Origin: Thermodesulfovibrio aggregans
GTDB lineage: Bacteria > Nitrospirota > Thermodesulfovibrionia > Thermodesulfovibrionales > Thermodesulfovibrionaceae
Length of the DNA stretch: 64,000 nucleotides
Direction: 5' to 3'
NCBI RefSeq assembly: GCF_001514535.1
Contig: NZ_BCNO01000001.1
Span: forward strand, 938,859 to 1,002,858
Numbering within the stretch: the first letter of the stretch is position 1; each line of letters opens with the position of its first letter. The translations under genes were made by a program, and so were the position numbers. Of this stretch, positions 30,406 to 37,826 are shown in pieces. Under the pieces are notes generated by a model. The model was not told the DNA's origin and ran no database searches. It worked only from the letters and a program-made list of their open reading frames with translations.

Positions 30406-30458
30406 AATAGTAGTCTCGTTTAAAAGCCCTTAAAAAATTAGTAGCTCTTGAAATACAC

Positions 30459-30486: not shown

Positions 30487-33400
30487 ATGATTTTAAGTCT
30501 ATTTAAAGGCTTATGCCCTAACTGTGGTGGAGAGATAGCTTCTCAAAGACTGGATAAAGGACTTCCCTGTGAAAAGTGCCTTCCAAATGAAGAAGATGAC
30601 CCCTGTAGTTTTATAAAATCTGGAAATTATAAAGAAGTTTGCCTTGTTAAAGAATATGTCCAAAAATGGGAAAAAAATTTTGAAAAATACGTAAAATCAA
30701 AACCATGGAGTCTTCAAAAAACTTGGGCAAAAAGAGTTTTTTCTGGCGTTTCCTTTGCTTTGTTAGCTCCCACAGGAGTTGGTAAGACCTCGTTTGGAAT
30801 CTCTATGGCATCATATCTTGCAAAATTGAATAAAAAATCATACATTATTGTGCCTACAAAACTTTTAGTTGAACAGGTTTCAGAGCGTTTAAAAAATTTT
30901 GGACTTAAAGATGAAATTCTTGGTTTTGTCGAAACTAATGAAAAGCTTAAGGAAAGATTGAAAAAAGGAGATTTTCAAGTTCTTGTTACAACCTCAATGT
31001 TTCTTTACAAAAATCAGGAAATAATTCCACCAGACTTTAGTTTTATTTTTGTTGATGATGTGGATTCCTTTTTAAAAACAGCAAAAAATGTTGACAAAGT
31101 TTTGTATTTACTTGGATTTTCTTCATCTGAAATTAAAAAAGCTCTTGAAGTTATTGCTCTTAAGGCAAAGGTAAAGAAAACTGATGCTGATTGGGAAAAA
31201 ATAAATGAAATTCAAAAGGAACTATATAGTTTAAGAAATACCAAAAAAGGCGTGCTTGTAGTATCTTCTGCTACAAGTCAACCCCGTTCAAACAGAATAA
31301 AAATTTTTCGTGAATTGTTAGGATTTGAAGTAGGAACTCCAACATTTTATTTAAGAAATGTGATTGATACTTTTACTGAAAAAGGTTCATTAGTGGGGTG
31401 GATTAAAAGACTTGGTAAAGGAGGTTTAATTTTTATCTCGTCAGATAAAGGAAAAGAAAAAATAGATGAAATCATAAAAGAACTCAAGAAAAACGGAATA
31501 GAAGCAGTATCATATGAAAATTTAAATGATAGAGCAATATCTAATTTTGAAAAAGGTAGGATAGATGTTTTAGTAGGGATAGCCTCCTATAAAAATCCTT
31601 TAGCTCGTGGATTTGACATGCCTCAAGTTGTAAGATATGCAATCTTTTATGGAGTTCCAAAAATTGTTATTTCTTTAAAATTTGAGTCAAACTTGAGTCA
31701 TCTTCTTTGGGCAGTTTCTTCAATTCGTTCTTTTATCGTTAAAAAAATGCCAAAGTACACACAAAAAATAAATAGTTGGATTAATCAATTAAGAAAATTT
31801 CAGTATTTAGCAGAAGATTTTATAAATTTAAAACCCTCTCTCAAGCAGACAATAGACAATTTAAGAGAACAAATAGGTGATTTTTTCTCATCAAAAGAAG
31901 TTCTGGATTTATTGAATTCTTCTGATGAAATAACTTTAAGATTTACAGAAGAAGGCTATATGATGGTGGTATCGGATGCTACAGGGTATCTTCAGGCAAG
32001 TGGAAGAGTTTCAAGGATGTACGCTGGTGGAATAACAAAGGGGCTTTCTTTAGTTTTAGTGGATGATACAGCTACATTTAAGCATCTTCTACGAAAGGTA
32101 AAATGGTTCAGCGATGAAATAAAGTTTTTGCCTGTAGAAGAGATTGATCTGAGCAGTGTTTTAAAAGAAATAGATGAAGATAGAGCAAAAATTAAAGAAT
32201 TTTTAATGACAAGAAAGCCTCAGGATAGTAAAGATCCCCTGAAACCGGTGTTAGTTATTGTAGAGTCTCCGAATAAAGCAAAAACTATTGCAAACTTTTT
32301 TGGAAAGCCTGTAAGAAGGAAAATTTTTGACCACGATCTTTTTGAAACCTCAATTGAAGATAGATACATAATAATAACATCCTCTTATGGACACATCCTT
32401 GATTTAGTAAAGAATGAAGCTTTTTATGGAGTAGTAGTTAATGAAAGCATTATACCTATATATAAAAGCATTGAAGGTAAAGAATCAATAATCGAAAGCT
32501 TAAGAAAGGTTTCTTTAGAGGCAGAACAGGTTCTTATTGCTACAGATCCAGATACAGAAGGAGAGAAAATCGGCTGGGATATTAATGAGATTTTAAAACC
32601 TTATGTTAAAGATATAAAAAGGATGGAATTTCACGAAGTTACTAAAAAAGCAGTAATTAAAGCATTAAAAGAGCCAAGAGATTTTGATTTTAATCTTATT
32701 AGAGCACAGATTGTAAGAAGAATTGCTGACAGATGGGTTGGTTTTGAGTTTTCTCAGTTACTTCAAAAAAATTTTGGCAAACAGACTCTTTCAGCTGGAA
32801 GAGTTCAGACTCCTGTTTTAGGCTGGATAATTGAAAGACAAAAAGAACACACGCAAAAAATTTACAAAGTTTCATTTTTCATAGAAGAGAATAACAAAAA
32901 ATTGCGATTAAATTTTGAATTCGAAGACAAACAGGAAGCTATGAAATTTTTTACTGATTTAAAAGAAGTTCAGCTTGAAGTTATTTCAACCTCAGAAAAG
33001 ATAGAAATGCCTCCACCTCCTTATAGGACTGATACAATGCTTAAAGATGCTGGAGATTTTTACAGATTTTCTTTACCAAAAACAATGGAGCTTGCTCAAA
33101 CTCTTTTTGAACTCGGATTCATAACTTATCATAGAACTGATTCCCAAAGAGTTTCCGATGCTGGAATTAATGTGGCAAGAGATTTTATAAAAGAGGAGTT
33201 TGGTCTGGAATACTTTTCCCCACGAATTTGGTCTGAAGGAGGTGCCCATGAGTGCATAAGACCTACAAAAGCAATTGAACCAGAAGAATTAAACTCTATG
33301 CTTATAACTGGCCAGATTGAAGGATTAAGTAAAGAGCATCTCCTTCTTTATGAAATGATTTTTAGAAGATTTATCGCAAGTCAGATGAAACCAGTTAAAA

Positions 33401-33891
33401 CTAAAAATGTTGAGATAGTTATTAAAGCATTAAATAGAGAACAGAAGATAAATTTGCGGACAGAGATATTTGAAGAAGGTTGGAACAAGATATTAAATAT
33501 TGAAACTTATCCAGAACTGCAGGGCATTTTTGATGTATCAAAAACAAAACAGTTCAGGCAGCAACCAAAGGTTTATCTTTATACTCATAGTGAGCTTGTT
33601 GCAAAAATGAAGGAAAAGGGAATTGGAAGACCTTCAACCTATGCCAGCATTGTTGAAAAACTTCTTGAGAGAAAATATATCATTGAATCAAAAGGTTTTT
33701 TAATTCCAACAGAACTTGGTAAAGCTGTATATTTCTATTTAAGTAACAGAGAAGAGATAAAAAACTTTCTTTCAGAAGAGTTTACAGAACAACTTGAATT
33801 ATTTATGGATAAAATTGAAGAAGGTGTTCTTGATTATGAAAAAGTGCTTTTTGATTTGTATGAGGAAATTTTAAAAACGAGAAAGCAGTAA
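30487..33891 (+). CDS. rgy: Reverse gyrase
   Basis: Introduces positive supercoils into DNA; a hallmark of thermophiles. The 1134-aa chain starts with a zinc finger (Cys10, Cys13, Cys28, Cys31). Next is a helicase-like domain: Walker A APTGVGKT at 94-101, the reverse-gyrase variant of Walker B VDDVDSFL, and an arginine-finger region ending in QASGRVSRM. A topoisomerase IA module follows, with TOPRIM VIVESPNKAK (Glu593), DPDTEGEK (687-694), SAGRVQTPVLGWI and catalytic Tyr881 in ITYHRTDSQRVS. The second zinc finger usual between the TOPRIM start and DPDTEGEK is missing: that stretch contains no cysteine. The start at 30487 fits the family; a TTG at 30448 would add 13 residues. The 3' end overlaps the convergent hydrogenase protease gene by 21 bp. 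Confidence 0.95.
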   Translation: MILSLFKGLCPNCGGEIASQRLDKGLPCEKCLPNEEDDPCSFIKSGNYKEVCLVKEYVQKWEKNFEKYVKSKPWSLQKTWAKRVFSGVSFALLAPTGVGKTSFGISMASYLAKLNKKSYIIVPTKLLVEQVSERLKNFGLKDEILGFVETNEKLKERLKKGDFQVLVTTSMFLYKNQEIIPPDFSFIFVDDVDSFLKTAKNVDKVLYLLGFSSSEIKKALEVIALKAKVKKTDADWEKINEIQKELYSLRNTKKGVLVVSSATSQPRSNRIKIFRELLGFEVGTPTFYLRNVIDTFTEKGSLVGWIKRLGKGGLIFISSDKGKEKIDEIIKELKKNGIEAVSYENLNDRAISNFEKGRIDVLVGIASYKNPLARGFDMPQVVRYAIFYGVPKIVISLKFESNLSHLLWAVSSIRSFIVKKMPKYTQKINSWINQLRKFQYLAEDFINLKPSLKQTIDNLREQIGDFFSSKEVLDLLNSSDEITLRFTEEGYMMVVSDATGYLQASGRVSRMYAGGITKGLSLVLVDDTATFKHLLRKVKWFSDEIKFLPVEEIDLSSVLKEIDEDRAKIKEFLMTRKPQDSKDPLKPVLVIVESPNKAKTIANFFGKPVRRKIFDHDLFETSIEDRYIIITSSYGHILDLVKNEAFYGVVVNESIIPIYKSIEGKESIIESLRKVSLEAEQVLIATDPDTEGEKIGWDINEILKPYVKDIKRMEFHEVTKKAVIKALKEPRDFDFNLIRAQIVRRIADRWVGFEFSQLLQKNFGKQTLSAGRVQTPVLGWIIERQKEHTQKIYKVSFFIEENNKKLRLNFEFEDKQEAMKFFTDLKEVQLEVISTSEKIEMPPPPYRTDTMLKDAGDFYRFSLPKTMELAQTLFELGFITYHRTDSQRVSDAGINVARDFIKEEFGLEYFSPRIWSEGGAHECIRPTKAIEPEELNSMLITGQIEGLSKEHLLLYEMIFRRFIASQMKPVKTKNVEIVIKALNREQKINLRTEIFEEGWNKILNIETYPELQGIFDVSKTKQFRQQPKVYLYTHSELVAKMKEKGIGRPSTYASIVEKLLERKYIIESKGFLIPTELGKAVYFYLSNREEIKNFLSEEFTEQLELFMDKIEEGVLDYEKVLFDLYEEILKTRKQ

Positions 33892-34359
33892 AGCTTTAAT
33901 CAGAATATTTTTTAAAGTTTCTGCAACATCTAAAATTTTTTCACTCATCCTATTTCCAAAATCTGTGTTTTCAGGCTGAATACCAATTATTAAGATTTCA
34001 GTTTTAATTCTTGATTTTATATAATCAATGCACATTTTAAGATTTGTCTGGTGGGTTGATATTCCTGTATGATACAAATCTTTCTTTTCTAAAAAAACTA
34101 CAGACCCTGGCTCATGATTCATATGTAAAGCATCAATAAAAATAACAGTATCTGGTTTATGATGAACTATTTTTTCAATAAATCTTTCAGGTTGATCTTC
34201 GCAGTCAACTAAAATTGCATCTATTTTTTCATTGCTTAATTTTTTTACAATGTATGAACCGACAGCATCGTCTGCTCTCAAGGAATTTCCTATTCCTGCT
34301 ATTAAAACTCTTCCCTTAATTTTACTTAAAAATTCATTCAACTCCAATTTGTTCTGCAA
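33871..34359 (-). CDS. [NiFe] hydrogenase maturation protease (HycI/HybD family)
   Basis: Endopeptidase that removes the C-terminal tail of the large subunit after nickel is inserted. The 162-aa protein shows VLIAGIGNSLRADDAVGSYI with the metal-ligand acidic residue, FIDALHMNHEPG with the second Asp, and ISTHQTNLKM with the ligand His. These are the three nickel-sensing positions of the family. It is the last gene of the hydrogenase operon and overlaps the small-subunit gene by 26 bp. The large subunit encoded at the operon start does carry a removable tail of 22 residues, so substrate and enzyme match. Confidence 0.9.
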   Translation of the reverse strand: MQNKLELNEFLSKIKGRVLIAGIGNSLRADDAVGSYIVKKLSNEKIDAILVDCEDQPERFIEKIVHHKPDTVIFIDALHMNHEPGSVVFLEKKDLYHTGISTHQTNLKMCIDYIKSRIKTEILIIGIQPENTDFGNRMSEKILDVAETLKNILIKALLLSRF

Positions 34360-34804
34360 TAAGGGGTTTTATTTTCTTTTTAGATATTCCGAGAGCTTGA
34401 GCAATTCCGAAGAGAATTGCTTCTGGACGAGGTGGGCATCCTGGTATGTATAAGTTAACGGGTATTATTTTATCAACTCCACCAACTACATTGTAGCTGT
34501 CAAACCATATACCACCTGCTGTGGCACAGGAGCCAAGAGCAATAACAATTTTTGGTTCTGGAGTTGCTTCATAAACTGATTTGACAAACTCTACAGTAGG
34601 TCTTGTTACAGGTCCTGAGATAACAAGTGCATCTGCATGACGGGGAGAGCTTACTGCCTTCATACCGAATCTTTCAATATCATAGTAAGGAGTAAGAACA
34701 TCAAGAAGTTCTATATCACAGCCATTACATGCTCCTGTATTAACATGAAATATCCATATTGATTTTTTTAGAGCCTTTTGTGCGAGTTTTTTAAGTAAAG
34801 ACAT
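34334..34804 (-). CDS. Group 4 hydrogenase small subunit (NuoB/HyfI-like)
   Basis: Peripheral electron-transfer subunit that carries the proximal [4Fe-4S] cluster next to the NiFe site. Of its 156 aa, the four expected cluster cysteines are visible in NTGACNGCDIELLDVL, IALGSCATAGGIW and YIPGCPPRPEAILFGI. The N-terminal helix is NuoB-like. The longer reading to 34858 is rejected because AAGGAGG stands 8 nt upstream of ATG 34804. The gene lies 13 bp after the HyfF-like gene and overlaps the maturation protease gene. No long N-terminal Tat signal is present, so this is the cytoplasm-facing group 4 type, not a periplasmic uptake enzyme. Confidence 0.92.
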   Translation of the reverse strand: MSLLKKLAQKALKKSIWIFHVNTGACNGCDIELLDVLTPYYDIERFGMKAVSSPRHADALVISGPVTRPTVEFVKSVYEATPEPKIVIALGSCATAGGIWFDSYNVVGGVDKIIPVNLYIPGCPPRPEAILFGIAQALGISKKKIKPLIAEQIGVE

Positions 34805-34817
34805 CTGAACAACCTCC

Positions 34818-36269
34818 TTATCCTGCTGTTTTAATAATTCCTTTTGTTGCCATGTCAATCATTGGATAAATAATTTCTGGATATATTCCAAAAACTATTA
34901 ATAAGATAACTAAAACTCCTGTACAAAATATGATTGAAAAAGGAACAGAACTTTTGAAAACTTCCATTTTTTCATTTTTCTGCCAGAATATTGATATTGC
35001 AGTCCTTAAAAGAGCAATGGCACAGACAAATTCCGATAATATTAAAACTACTGATGCCCACAGGAAGCCTTCATTTGTCAGGGCAATAAATATCGTAATT
35101 GAACTCAAAAAGCTTGCTGTAAGAGGCATTCCTCCTACTGCCAGCGAACCAATGAAAAAGAATATTGTAACAGTTGGCATTTTCCCTATTGATTCCTTTA
35201 TTTCCTCAACTATTCTGCTTCCACAGGCATAAATTATTGCGCCTGTAGCAAAGAATAAGACTCCTTTCATAATTGTATGATTGATAATATGGAAAATGCC
35301 TCCAAATAAACCTTCATAGTTTTTTAAAGCCAAGGCTGATGCTATAAATCCCATTTCACTGATACTAATACAGGCAATCAACTTCTTGATATCCCTTTGA
35401 TTGAATGCAATAACAGCACCTATAAGCATGCTTAATGATGAAAGAATTATAATCAGAACTTTTATCTCTTCATAGTTAAAAGAAAATAGTGTAACTGTTC
35501 TGGCTATTCCATAAAATCCGAGTTTTGTTACTGCTCCAGCTAAAAATACTGTTATAGCTGATGGAGACTCTGCATATGAGTCAGGCAACCAAAGATGGAA
35601 TGGAACTAATCCTGCCTTTGTGAAAAATCCAACAATAAATAAAAATGCAGAAAGAAGAGCAATATTTCTTGGTAAAGTTTTAATTATTTCACCAATATTG
35701 CTTATCATTACAGTTTTTCCAGCCATATAGAAAAGAAGAATAATCCCGAGTAAACTAAAAAGAATTCCCACATTGACTAAAATCAGATATTTGAATCCAG
35801 CCTTTAATGATGTCTTGTTTAAGTTAAAAACTATGAGATAAACTGAGACAATACTGCTTAGTTCAAGTGCTATATAGATCCAGAAAAGATTATTCAAAAT
35901 AAAGGCAAGATTCATAAATGCTAATGCAATAAGTATGACACTATAATAGATATGAAAGCTTTCTTTTCTATGGCTATAAACTTTGCCAATATATTTTGGT
36001 GAATATAAAATTACCATTAAAGCAACAAACTCAACCATTAACTGCATTAGCAGGCTTAATCCATCAATGTAAAACACTTGTCCATAAAATAGTGTTTTTT
36101 CATCAGATGAAAACAGTGTATTCCACGAAAGCACAGTACCAACAATTGCCAGAACTATTGATACAATGGAAATAAAATCTCTTATTAAAGCTCTTTTACC
36201 AAAAAGAAGAATTAGTAAAGAGCCTAATGCTGGAGAGATAAAACTCAGAGTGAGCATAATAAAACTCAT
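34818..36269 (-). CDS. Antiporter-like membrane subunit, HyfF/NuoN-like
   Basis: Proton-conducting membrane transporter family subunit of the hydrogenase membrane arm. The 483-aa protein has about 14 predicted helices. The conserved Glu lies in WIYIALELSSIVSVYL (TM5 type). The conserved Lys is in FFTKAGLVPFHLWLPDSYAESPSA (TM7 and broken helix) and further charged residues are in IIYACGSRIVEEIKES. The order and length resemble HyfF of the formate hydrogenlyase-2 type. It overlaps the HyfE-like gene by 4 bp. It is one of three antiporter-like subunits in this operon. Confidence 0.9.
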   Translation of the reverse strand: MSFIMLTLSFISPALGSLLILLFGKRALIRDFISIVSIVLAIVGTVLSWNTLFSSDEKTLFYGQVFYIDGLSLLMQLMVEFVALMVILYSPKYIGKVYSHRKESFHIYYSVILIALAFMNLAFILNNLFWIYIALELSSIVSVYLIVFNLNKTSLKAGFKYLILVNVGILFSLLGIILLFYMAGKTVMISNIGEIIKTLPRNIALLSAFLFIVGFFTKAGLVPFHLWLPDSYAESPSAITVFLAGAVTKLGFYGIARTVTLFSFNYEEIKVLIIILSSLSMLIGAVIAFNQRDIKKLIACISISEMGFIASALALKNYEGLFGGIFHIINHTIMKGVLFFATGAIIYACGSRIVEEIKESIGKMPTVTIFFFIGSLAVGGMPLTASFLSSITIFIALTNEGFLWASVVLILSEFVCAIALLRTAISIFWQKNEKMEVFKSSVPFSIIFCTGVLVILLIVFGIYPEIIYPMIDMATKGIIKTAG

Positions 36270-36910
36270 TGTTCACTCCCTTGAGAATTTATTTCTTTGA
36301 ATTTTTTAATTTCCTCTCTGAAAAATACTTCATTCAGTCTTATAGTAAGATAAACAAAAAATAGCACTGCCACAACAAAATTAAAAGTTAATGAAATTTC
36401 AATAAGCTTTGGCATATGAGGAATCATGCTTATTATCAGGAAGTGAATTCCGTTTTCAATAATAAAAAAGCTTATTATCATTTTTATCATGTCCTTTTTT
36501 GATATGAATAGATACAATCCATAGATAACAAGGGTTAATCCGCAGGAAAAACCTGAAAGCACCTGAGGCAGTTGATAGACTGTGAATATCTTAACAAAGT
36601 GATAACCAACAGAAAGAACAACTATTGATAGGGCTATGGAAAGAGGATGAGAAATTGAAGGTTTTTCCTCTGTTTCAACTCTATTTTTTAAACACTTAAG
36701 CAAGAATAAAGGCATTAGAATGGCTCTTACAACCAGATCAACTACTCCTATCAAATAGAGAGAGGATATTTCGTAGATATAACCTATGGTAAAGACTGCA
36801 ACAACAATTAAAAGACTATGAGGAACAAGACTTAAAGTTGAAAACTTTAAGCTTTTAGCTTCTCCTGCAAGAAAAGTAAAGAATAAAATTGCAATAAATA
36901 TTATCTCCAT
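36266..36910 (-). CDS. Hydrogenase membrane subunit HyfE-like
   Basis: A 214-aa integral membrane protein with about six to seven helices and a C-terminal charged end. The stretch MIKMIISFFIIENGIHFLII matches the HyfE subunit, a distant relative of NuoK, where a buried Glu lies in the IENG motif. It has no motif for cofactors. It overlaps the HyfF-like gene by 4 bp and is 1 bp from the HyfC-like gene. In known complexes this subunit bridges the antiporter modules, but that role here is by analogy. Confidence 0.82.
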   Translation of the reverse strand: MEIIFIAILFFTFLAGEAKSLKFSTLSLVPHSLLIVVAVFTIGYIYEISSLYLIGVVDLVVRAILMPLFLLKCLKNRVETEEKPSISHPLSIALSIVVLSVGYHFVKIFTVYQLPQVLSGFSCGLTLVIYGLYLFISKKDMIKMIISFFIIENGIHFLIISMIPHMPKLIEISLTFNFVVAVLFFVYLTIRLNEVFFREEIKKFKEINSQGSEQ

Positions 36911-36911
36911 A

Positions 36912-37826
36912 CTAAACTCCTAAAAGAGCTAAAAATATTGATGTTAGTGAAAAAAGAGCAAGAGTTAGATTATATTTCAAAGCCTGATCAATTCTGAGTC
37001 TTGGATTTAGAGCTTCAATAAGGGTGCTTATAAAGATAATTGCCGTTACTTTTATTAAGGCTATCAATATGTTTAACAGAGAGTTTTCTGAAAAAGTCCA
37101 TGGAATAAAAATCTGTGTAAAAACAAGACAGAAAAGAACCTGCCTTGACATATTTGCCCATTTAACACAGGCATATTTAGGACCGCTTAATTCAATAAGT
37201 ACACCTTCTGCAATCTCCTGTTCAGCTTCAGATATGTCAAATGGAATTTTACCAATCAAAGCCTGAAGTGATAGAAACACACAGACTGTTGCAAGAAGCA
37301 TGGAGACATTTGGTCCGTTTGAATAATACCATGTAACAATATCACCAATTTTAAAAGAGCCAGCATTTATAGCACCTGTTATAAGTGCAATTGCAAGAAT
37401 TGGCTCAACTGAAAGATGAAGCATCATTTTACGGGATGCACCAATAAAGGCAAAAGGATTTTCAGAGGCTGAAGCAGTAATAATTATTGCAATTCCAACA
37501 ACTGTAATTATATAGATGAAGAGAAATATATCTCCCCAGAAATTTAGCGGAGGAATCAATCCAGTAATAGGTATTAAAAGAGATGCCATACCAATGCTTA
37601 CAACTGAAAGATATGGTGAGAGTCTGAAAAGGGGATTTATAGTTGATTTTAAGTCTTCCTTCCCCATTAACTTGATAATGTCATAGTATGACTGAAGAGG
37701 TGGAGGTCCTACTCTGCTTTGAATCAATGCTCTTACCTTTCTTGTAAATCCATCAAAAAAAGGAGAAAGAAGCAAAACAACAAACAGGTTTACAATGGTT
37801 GAATATATGAGAAATTCAGGATTCAT
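36912..37826 (-). CDS. Hydrogenase membrane subunit HyfC/NuoH-like
   Basis: The subunit that anchors the peripheral arm to the membrane. The 304-aa protein has about eight helices. NuoH signatures are visible: ALIQSRVGPPPLQSYYDIIKLMGKED, a loop near the quinone-side cavity in complex I; IPFDISEAEQEIAEGVLIE, with its cluster of acidic residues; and the C-terminal LNPRLRIDQALKYN. It overlaps the HyfB-like gene by 4 bp. Confidence 0.92.
   Translation of the reverse strand: MNPEFLIYSTIVNLFVVLLLSPFFDGFTRKVRALIQSRVGPPPLQSYYDIIKLMGKEDLKSTINPLFRLSPYLSVVSIGMASLLIPITGLIPPLNFWGDIFLFIYIITVVGIAIIITASASENPFAFIGASRKMMLHLSVEPILAIALITGAINAGSFKIGDIVTWYYSNGPNVSMLLATVCVFLSLQALIGKIPFDISEAEQEIAEGVLIELSGPKYACVKWANMSRQVLFCLVFTQIFIPWTFSENSLLNILIALIKVTAIIFISTLIEALNPRLRIDQALKYNLTLALFSLTSIFLALLGV

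Follow-up and report, generated by a model that had tools for sequence, protein, structure and literature searches.

The 64,000-nucleotide stretch of the Thermodesulfovibrio aggregans genome analysed here (referred to as the window; contig NZ_BCNO01000001.1, positions 938,859 to 1,002,858) contains a gene for a reverse gyrase (RG) in which the N-terminal zinc finger (Zn1) is present and the second zinc finger (Zn2) is missing as a whole. From our point of view, the gene is best understood as an intact and probably active RG of a large Zn2-less lineage, a reading to which we would assign a probability of about 0.85. The absence of Zn2 is, as judged from the RG tree, inherited and ordinary, being common to a large branch of the family and not peculiar to the window gene. 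Since the Zn2-less RGs form one clade, the trait was inherited together with the gene, which reached Thermodesulfovibrio as a member of that clade.

The open reading frame is complete on the + strand, running from either a TTG at 30448 or an in-frame ATG at 30487 to 33891 with zero internal stops, and the ATG start (30487..33891) is favoured because the alignments of most relatives begin at about query residue 14. Seven cysteines are encoded, at residues 10, 13, 28, 31, 40, 52 and 923 when counted from the ATG (23, 26, 41, 44, 53, 65 and 936 when counted from the TTG). The first four, which the original prediction had already designated as the N-terminal finger, all lie inside the match to the Pfam family zf_Rg (PF17915, 74 bits), and Cys10, Cys13, Cys28 and Cys31 (ATG numbering; 30514..30579, + strand) thus make up a four-cysteine Zn1. 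The stretch from the VxVESP motif to DPDTEGEK is free of cysteine, as had been predicted, and counts 97 residues by these anchors instead of the approximately 94 given before.

Alignment with RGs of known structure locates what is missing. The enzymes of Thermotoga maritima (4ddt) and Archaeoglobus fulgidus (1gl9) carry a CxxC...CxxC module exactly at the gap site of the window RG, residues 620-639 of the 4ddt chain are skipped in the alignment, and roughly 20-25 residues that hold Zn2 in both enzymes are absent. In their place, the AlphaFold2 model predicts, in a high-confidence region, a strand (residues 655-661) that passes through the four-residue turn IEGK (residues 662-665; 32470..32481, + strand) into a helix (666-676). 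As such, no Zn2 can be assigned to the window protein, and it is the entire module and not merely its cysteines that is absent, whereas the remaining fold is kept according to the model. The original prediction of a lost second finger therefore stands with respect to the absence and has to be widened from the cysteines to the module; that the finger was lost, and not simply never present, is a matter of polarity which rooting leaves unsettled. The membership in the RG family stands despite the missing finger, because Zn2 varies within the family: a published survey (Catchpole & Forterre 2019, PMC6878951) describes the Zn2 motif as conserved in only 62% of its RG sequences.

In order to place the window RG among its relatives, 185 hits were scored; once two copies of the window and 25 fragments had been set aside, the remaining 158 were classed together with the window RG (159 full-length sequences). 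Class membership was read from the segment that joins the Tyr/Phe of the PxY strand to DPD, with the module being absent (class D), present with four cysteines in two CxxC (class Z), or present with fewer than two CxxC (class X). The full set comprised 86 D, 51 Z and 22 X, and after removal of rows that were >90% identical, 123 RGs remained (57 D, 46 Z, 20 X). These counts are not population frequencies because the sample is biased, consisting of the best-scoring plus hand-chosen regions, weighted to Aquificota and Thermoproteota, with Thermotogota and Thermodesulfobacteriota not sampled on purpose. A single branch separated all 57 D rows from the other RGs (support 99; FastTree, 123 rows, trait columns removed), a value that was also obtained without Thermus and the locus L045. 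By both the absence of the module and the descent from this branch, the window RG belongs to the clade, together with Aquificaceae, Hydrogenothermaceae, other Thermodesulfovibrio, one metagenome-assembled genome (MAG) of Omnitrophota and a small number of archaeal rows, namely Mnemosynella, a Woesearchaeota MAG and two genomes from the phylum to which a Thermoprotei MAG belongs. The idea that the missing finger is an oddity of the window gene does not hold, and the short loop is indeed shared by many relatives, which the original prediction had named as speaking against it (57/123, in addition to the published 62% figure). Overall, its observation is confirmed and its interpretation is partly supported.

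Zn1 with two CxxC was found in 55 of the 57 Zn2-less rows, and neither Zn1 nor the length of the latch showed a clear correlation with the Zn2 class, the medians of the latch segment being 107 (D), 116 (Z) and 105 (X) residues. Of 136 Aquificota genomes, 123 have an RG that scores above the cut-off. In the ten Aquificota genomes with two RG copies that were read, each had one D and one X copy, and since none of these 20 copies holds a complete four-cysteine Zn2, enzymes of this kind do serve thermophiles. Among 12 archaeal genomes with two RGs, seven combined one X with one Z copy and five had two Z copies; the X/Z pairs are in line with the contrast of TopR1 and TopR2 described in PMC6878951, and they thereby provide a check on the classing method.

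The window protein scores 1334.3 bits against the NCBIfam model TIGR01054 (rgy; cut-off 471.7) and 360 bits against the topA model, which is under the cut-off of 456.4. Together with the Pfam order (zf_Rg, DEAD, Toprim, Topoisom_bac), this bears out the earlier annotation as RG, and motifs and fold likewise show that a superfamily 2 (SF2) helicase-like domain is joined to a type IA topoisomerase carrying the TOPRIM domain and the tyrosine. All features lie on the + strand. The helicase-like domain H1/H2 (30634..32199) contains the Walker A motif APTGVGKT at residue 94, DDVD at 190, SAT at 261 and QASGR at 503, and its residues 50-571 match the fold of 3p4y/3oiy. The TOPRIM domain follows at 32248..32637 (Pfam Toprim, 76 bits), with the metal-binding motif DPDTEGE at 32545..32565, and Tyr881 (33127..33129), which we take to be catalytic as in other type IA topoisomerases, lies within GFITYHRTDS. 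An alignment of 29 rows shows no variation at D687, D689, E691 and Y881. A catalytic role of Tyr881 is consistent with that of T. maritima Y851, and the 107-residue latch segment (31654..31974) is of the long class according to the lengths given in the same study (PMC10233626). The AlphaFold2 model (mean pLDDT 84.8, pTM 0.79) has T. maritima RG 4ddt as its best structural match (Z 43.2, 3.3 Å over 1000 residues; Foldseek E 1.2e-86). The open reading frame hence represents an intact and complete RG, and the encoded enzyme probably supercoils DNA positively in an ATP-dependent manner.

In RGs, ATP cycling in the helicase-like domain steers, via the latch, the strand passage of the topoisomerase domain toward positive supercoils. 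The same scheme is outlined in PMC10233626 and PMC6878951. For the window enzyme, ATP would drive the closure of the helicase domain, the latch would relay it, and the relayed closure would bias how strands pass the single-strand gate, which is linked to the tyrosine, and thus yield positive supercoils. DNA contacts that are supplied by Zn2 elsewhere could be carried by Zn1 and the long latch of 107 residues, and we infer that these two elements may suffice without Zn2.

Different explanations for the missing finger have to be considered. A frameshift or an assembly error as its cause was rejected and can practically be dismissed, as the frame is open without stops and the same loop is found across the clade as well as in two further genomes of the genus (G047 and G075), whose RGs are 82% and 81% identical to the window RG and occupy the same site. 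It is also conceivable, if improbable, that the enzyme lost positive supercoiling and acts as a relaxing topoisomerase or as a DNA-protecting factor at about 60 °C. RG is patchily distributed in the genus (six of 16 Thermodesulfovibrio genomes, and three of 11 when only those with a completeness of at least 90% are counted), which would fit such a change of function, whereas the helicase motifs, the latch and Zn1 are conserved and the Zn2-less clade includes lineages of Thermocrinis and Hydrogenobacter, which grow at high temperature. Some points do weigh against the preferred reading of an active enzyme from a Zn2-less lineage. Of the 11 genomes with this completeness, eight lack RG, so that the gene is dispensable in the genus, and the support that separates the Zn2-less clade from the Thermus row drops to 82 when Thermus is included. 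Moreover, published mutants (Li 2011 and Rudolph 2013, as cited in PMC6878951) connect Zn2 with the binding of DNA and with positive supercoiling, so that a Zn2-less enzyme could supercoil less. From the work cited there, it is plausible that the missing finger bears on the coupling of strand passage, as had been proposed before.

Two histories could have led to the Zn2-less clade. Secondary loss, in which the RG ancestor had a four-cysteine Zn2 and a single deletion removed it at the clade's base, has in our view an even chance of being correct, and a primitive short TopA-like loop, with Zn2 inserted in the common ancestor of the remaining RGs, is a real possibility short of even odds. The loop itself argues for the latter history. 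Most Zn2-less RGs (45 of 57) and nearly all bacterial TopA (37 of 38) have exactly 28 residues from Tyr/Phe to DPD, a GK occupies the same place in 37 of those 45 RGs and in 35 of the 38 TopA, and no glycine is found at the GK position in any of the 66 module-bearing (Z and X) RG rows. As the leftover loop equals that of TopA in length and GK signature, a retained primitive loop is favoured by this comparison, although a turn of four residues could arise again by convergence. Outside the loop, the similarity to TopA is no higher for Zn2-less RGs (0.348) than for bacterial module-bearing ones (0.351; archaeal RGs 0.327), which speaks against a finger that was never gained; an origin of the short loop by recombination with TopA was rejected, since the similarity to TopA is not locally raised outside the loop. 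For rooting, rows at most 66% identical were used, with intein-bearing rows left out and one Thermus row added, and archaeal type IA topoisomerases were excluded, as the loop motif was not recognised in the majority. The 80-row TopA-rooted tree shows the three deep RG branches as an open fork. Zn2-bearing and degenerate-Zn2 RGs occur on both other deep branches, the Thermus RG, in which the module is degenerate, falls with the Zn2-less clade (support 95), and cysteines have decayed repeatedly elsewhere (20/123 rows in class X), all of which favours a loss; the placement of Thermus also counts against a finger that was never gained. In a set of 36 hand-picked rows (nine Zn2-less, seven bacterial with module, 13 archaeal, seven TopA), the best tree unites the Zn2-type RGs in one clade as expected for a later gain, but with a support of 9. 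The three roots lie within 0.06 log-likelihood units of each other, and the approximately unbiased (AU) test gave the two constrained trees p-AU values of 0.424 and 0.426, so that the Zn2-less branch is just as likely a place for the root as the others. The roots of RG trees were likewise described as weak and shifting (PMC6878951). That Zn2 is an insertion gained inside the RG family, with the Zn2-less clade including the window gene keeping the original TopA loop, can be put forward tentatively.

The genome in question (2.0 Mb, three contigs) belongs to a thermophile lineage, as had been predicted, its genus-mates being Thermodesulfovibrio. An RG was already listed in PMC6878951 for T. aggregans, with growth at 60 °C. 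In the window, the gene lies between aspS and a set of hydrogenase-type genes on the - strand (HycI, NuoB, NuoL-like and others; 33871-37826), with which it converges, RG and hycI sharing 21 bases at their 3' ends. In the genomes G000, G047 and G075, RG occupies one shared site converging on the HycI-NuoB-NuoL hydrogenase cluster, and aspS is the other neighbour in the window genome only, among the genomes in which both were located. In another genus-mate (G660, contig 72), RG and the NuoB gene are about 6.5 kb apart and not adjacent. A promoter scan found promoter-like sites at chance level (12 versus 12.0 expected), and a terminator scan returned zero terminator-like sites.

Among the other loci, L045 lies in a genome (G154) that shares its order with the window genome and encodes an RG which, unlike the window type, has a complete Zn2 and closely resembles the A. 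fulgidus enzyme (1178 bits against 1gl9), suggesting a separate transfer or a binning error. Four Aquificota-type RGs have an insert inside the catalytic DPDxEGE motif, which Pfam identifies as an intein in L038 (851-5908, with a LAGLIDADG endonuclease match) and in L041 (3935-8245, shorter and without endonuclease match); L039 and L128 share the insert junction of these two. In one of the two Aquificota RG copies (L073-L079, L084, L093, L107, L110, L112 and L116), the length of the Zn2 module is kept with two cysteines and a conserved QHT, roughly as C-x6-H-x9-C. RG was also found on 16 Thermus plasmid records (for example L277 and L278), L278 having a degenerate Zn2 module with two cysteines.

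Taken alone, the window gene matters little, as it adds one more RG from a moderately thermophilic genus already known for one, and incomplete Zn2 has been published (PMC6878951). Beyond that paper, we recognised no discussion of a Zn2-less RG clade in literature searches that left subscription journals mostly outside. What is worth passing on is only the tidy Zn2-less clade and its TopA-like loop. The natural absence of the module across a clade offers enzymes in which the role of Zn2 can be tested without making mutants that lack it, and RG trees might be rooted with the help of the indel and its TopA-like GK loop as a candidate marker. If Zn2 was indeed gained later, helicase-topoisomerase coupling and positive supercoiling would have arisen without it, and the Zn2-less clade would be sister to all other RGs, with a bearing on where RG arose.

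Compared to known systems, the window RG is closest to the Zn2-less RGs of Aquificota (Hydrogenobacter, Thermocrinis, Sulfurihydrogenibium), with which it shares 60-63% identity over nearly the full length, the 28-residue loop, Zn1 and the long latch, and from which it differs only in host and sequence divergence. The T. maritima RG (4ddt, 7fsf, 8ofb) resembles it in fold and in the layout of helicase, latch and topoisomerase (37% identity in the structural alignment), but has Zn2 (chain residues 620-639) and a latch of 67 residues (PMC10233626) compared to the 107-residue segment in the window RG. The A. fulgidus RG (1gku, 1gl9) is likewise similar in fold (Z 39.3 for 1gku) and differs in having Zn2 and, according to the same source, a latch of a different fold. 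In crenarchaeal TopR1-like RGs, the second finger is incomplete as well (PMC6878951; one class X copy in 7/12 archaeal pairs), but these enzymes keep the module with its cysteines replaced, whereas the window RG is without the entire module. Bacterial TopA, lastly, has the topoisomerase domain and a GK loop of equal length at the Zn2 site in common with the window RG, and unlike it possesses neither a helicase-like domain nor Zn1.
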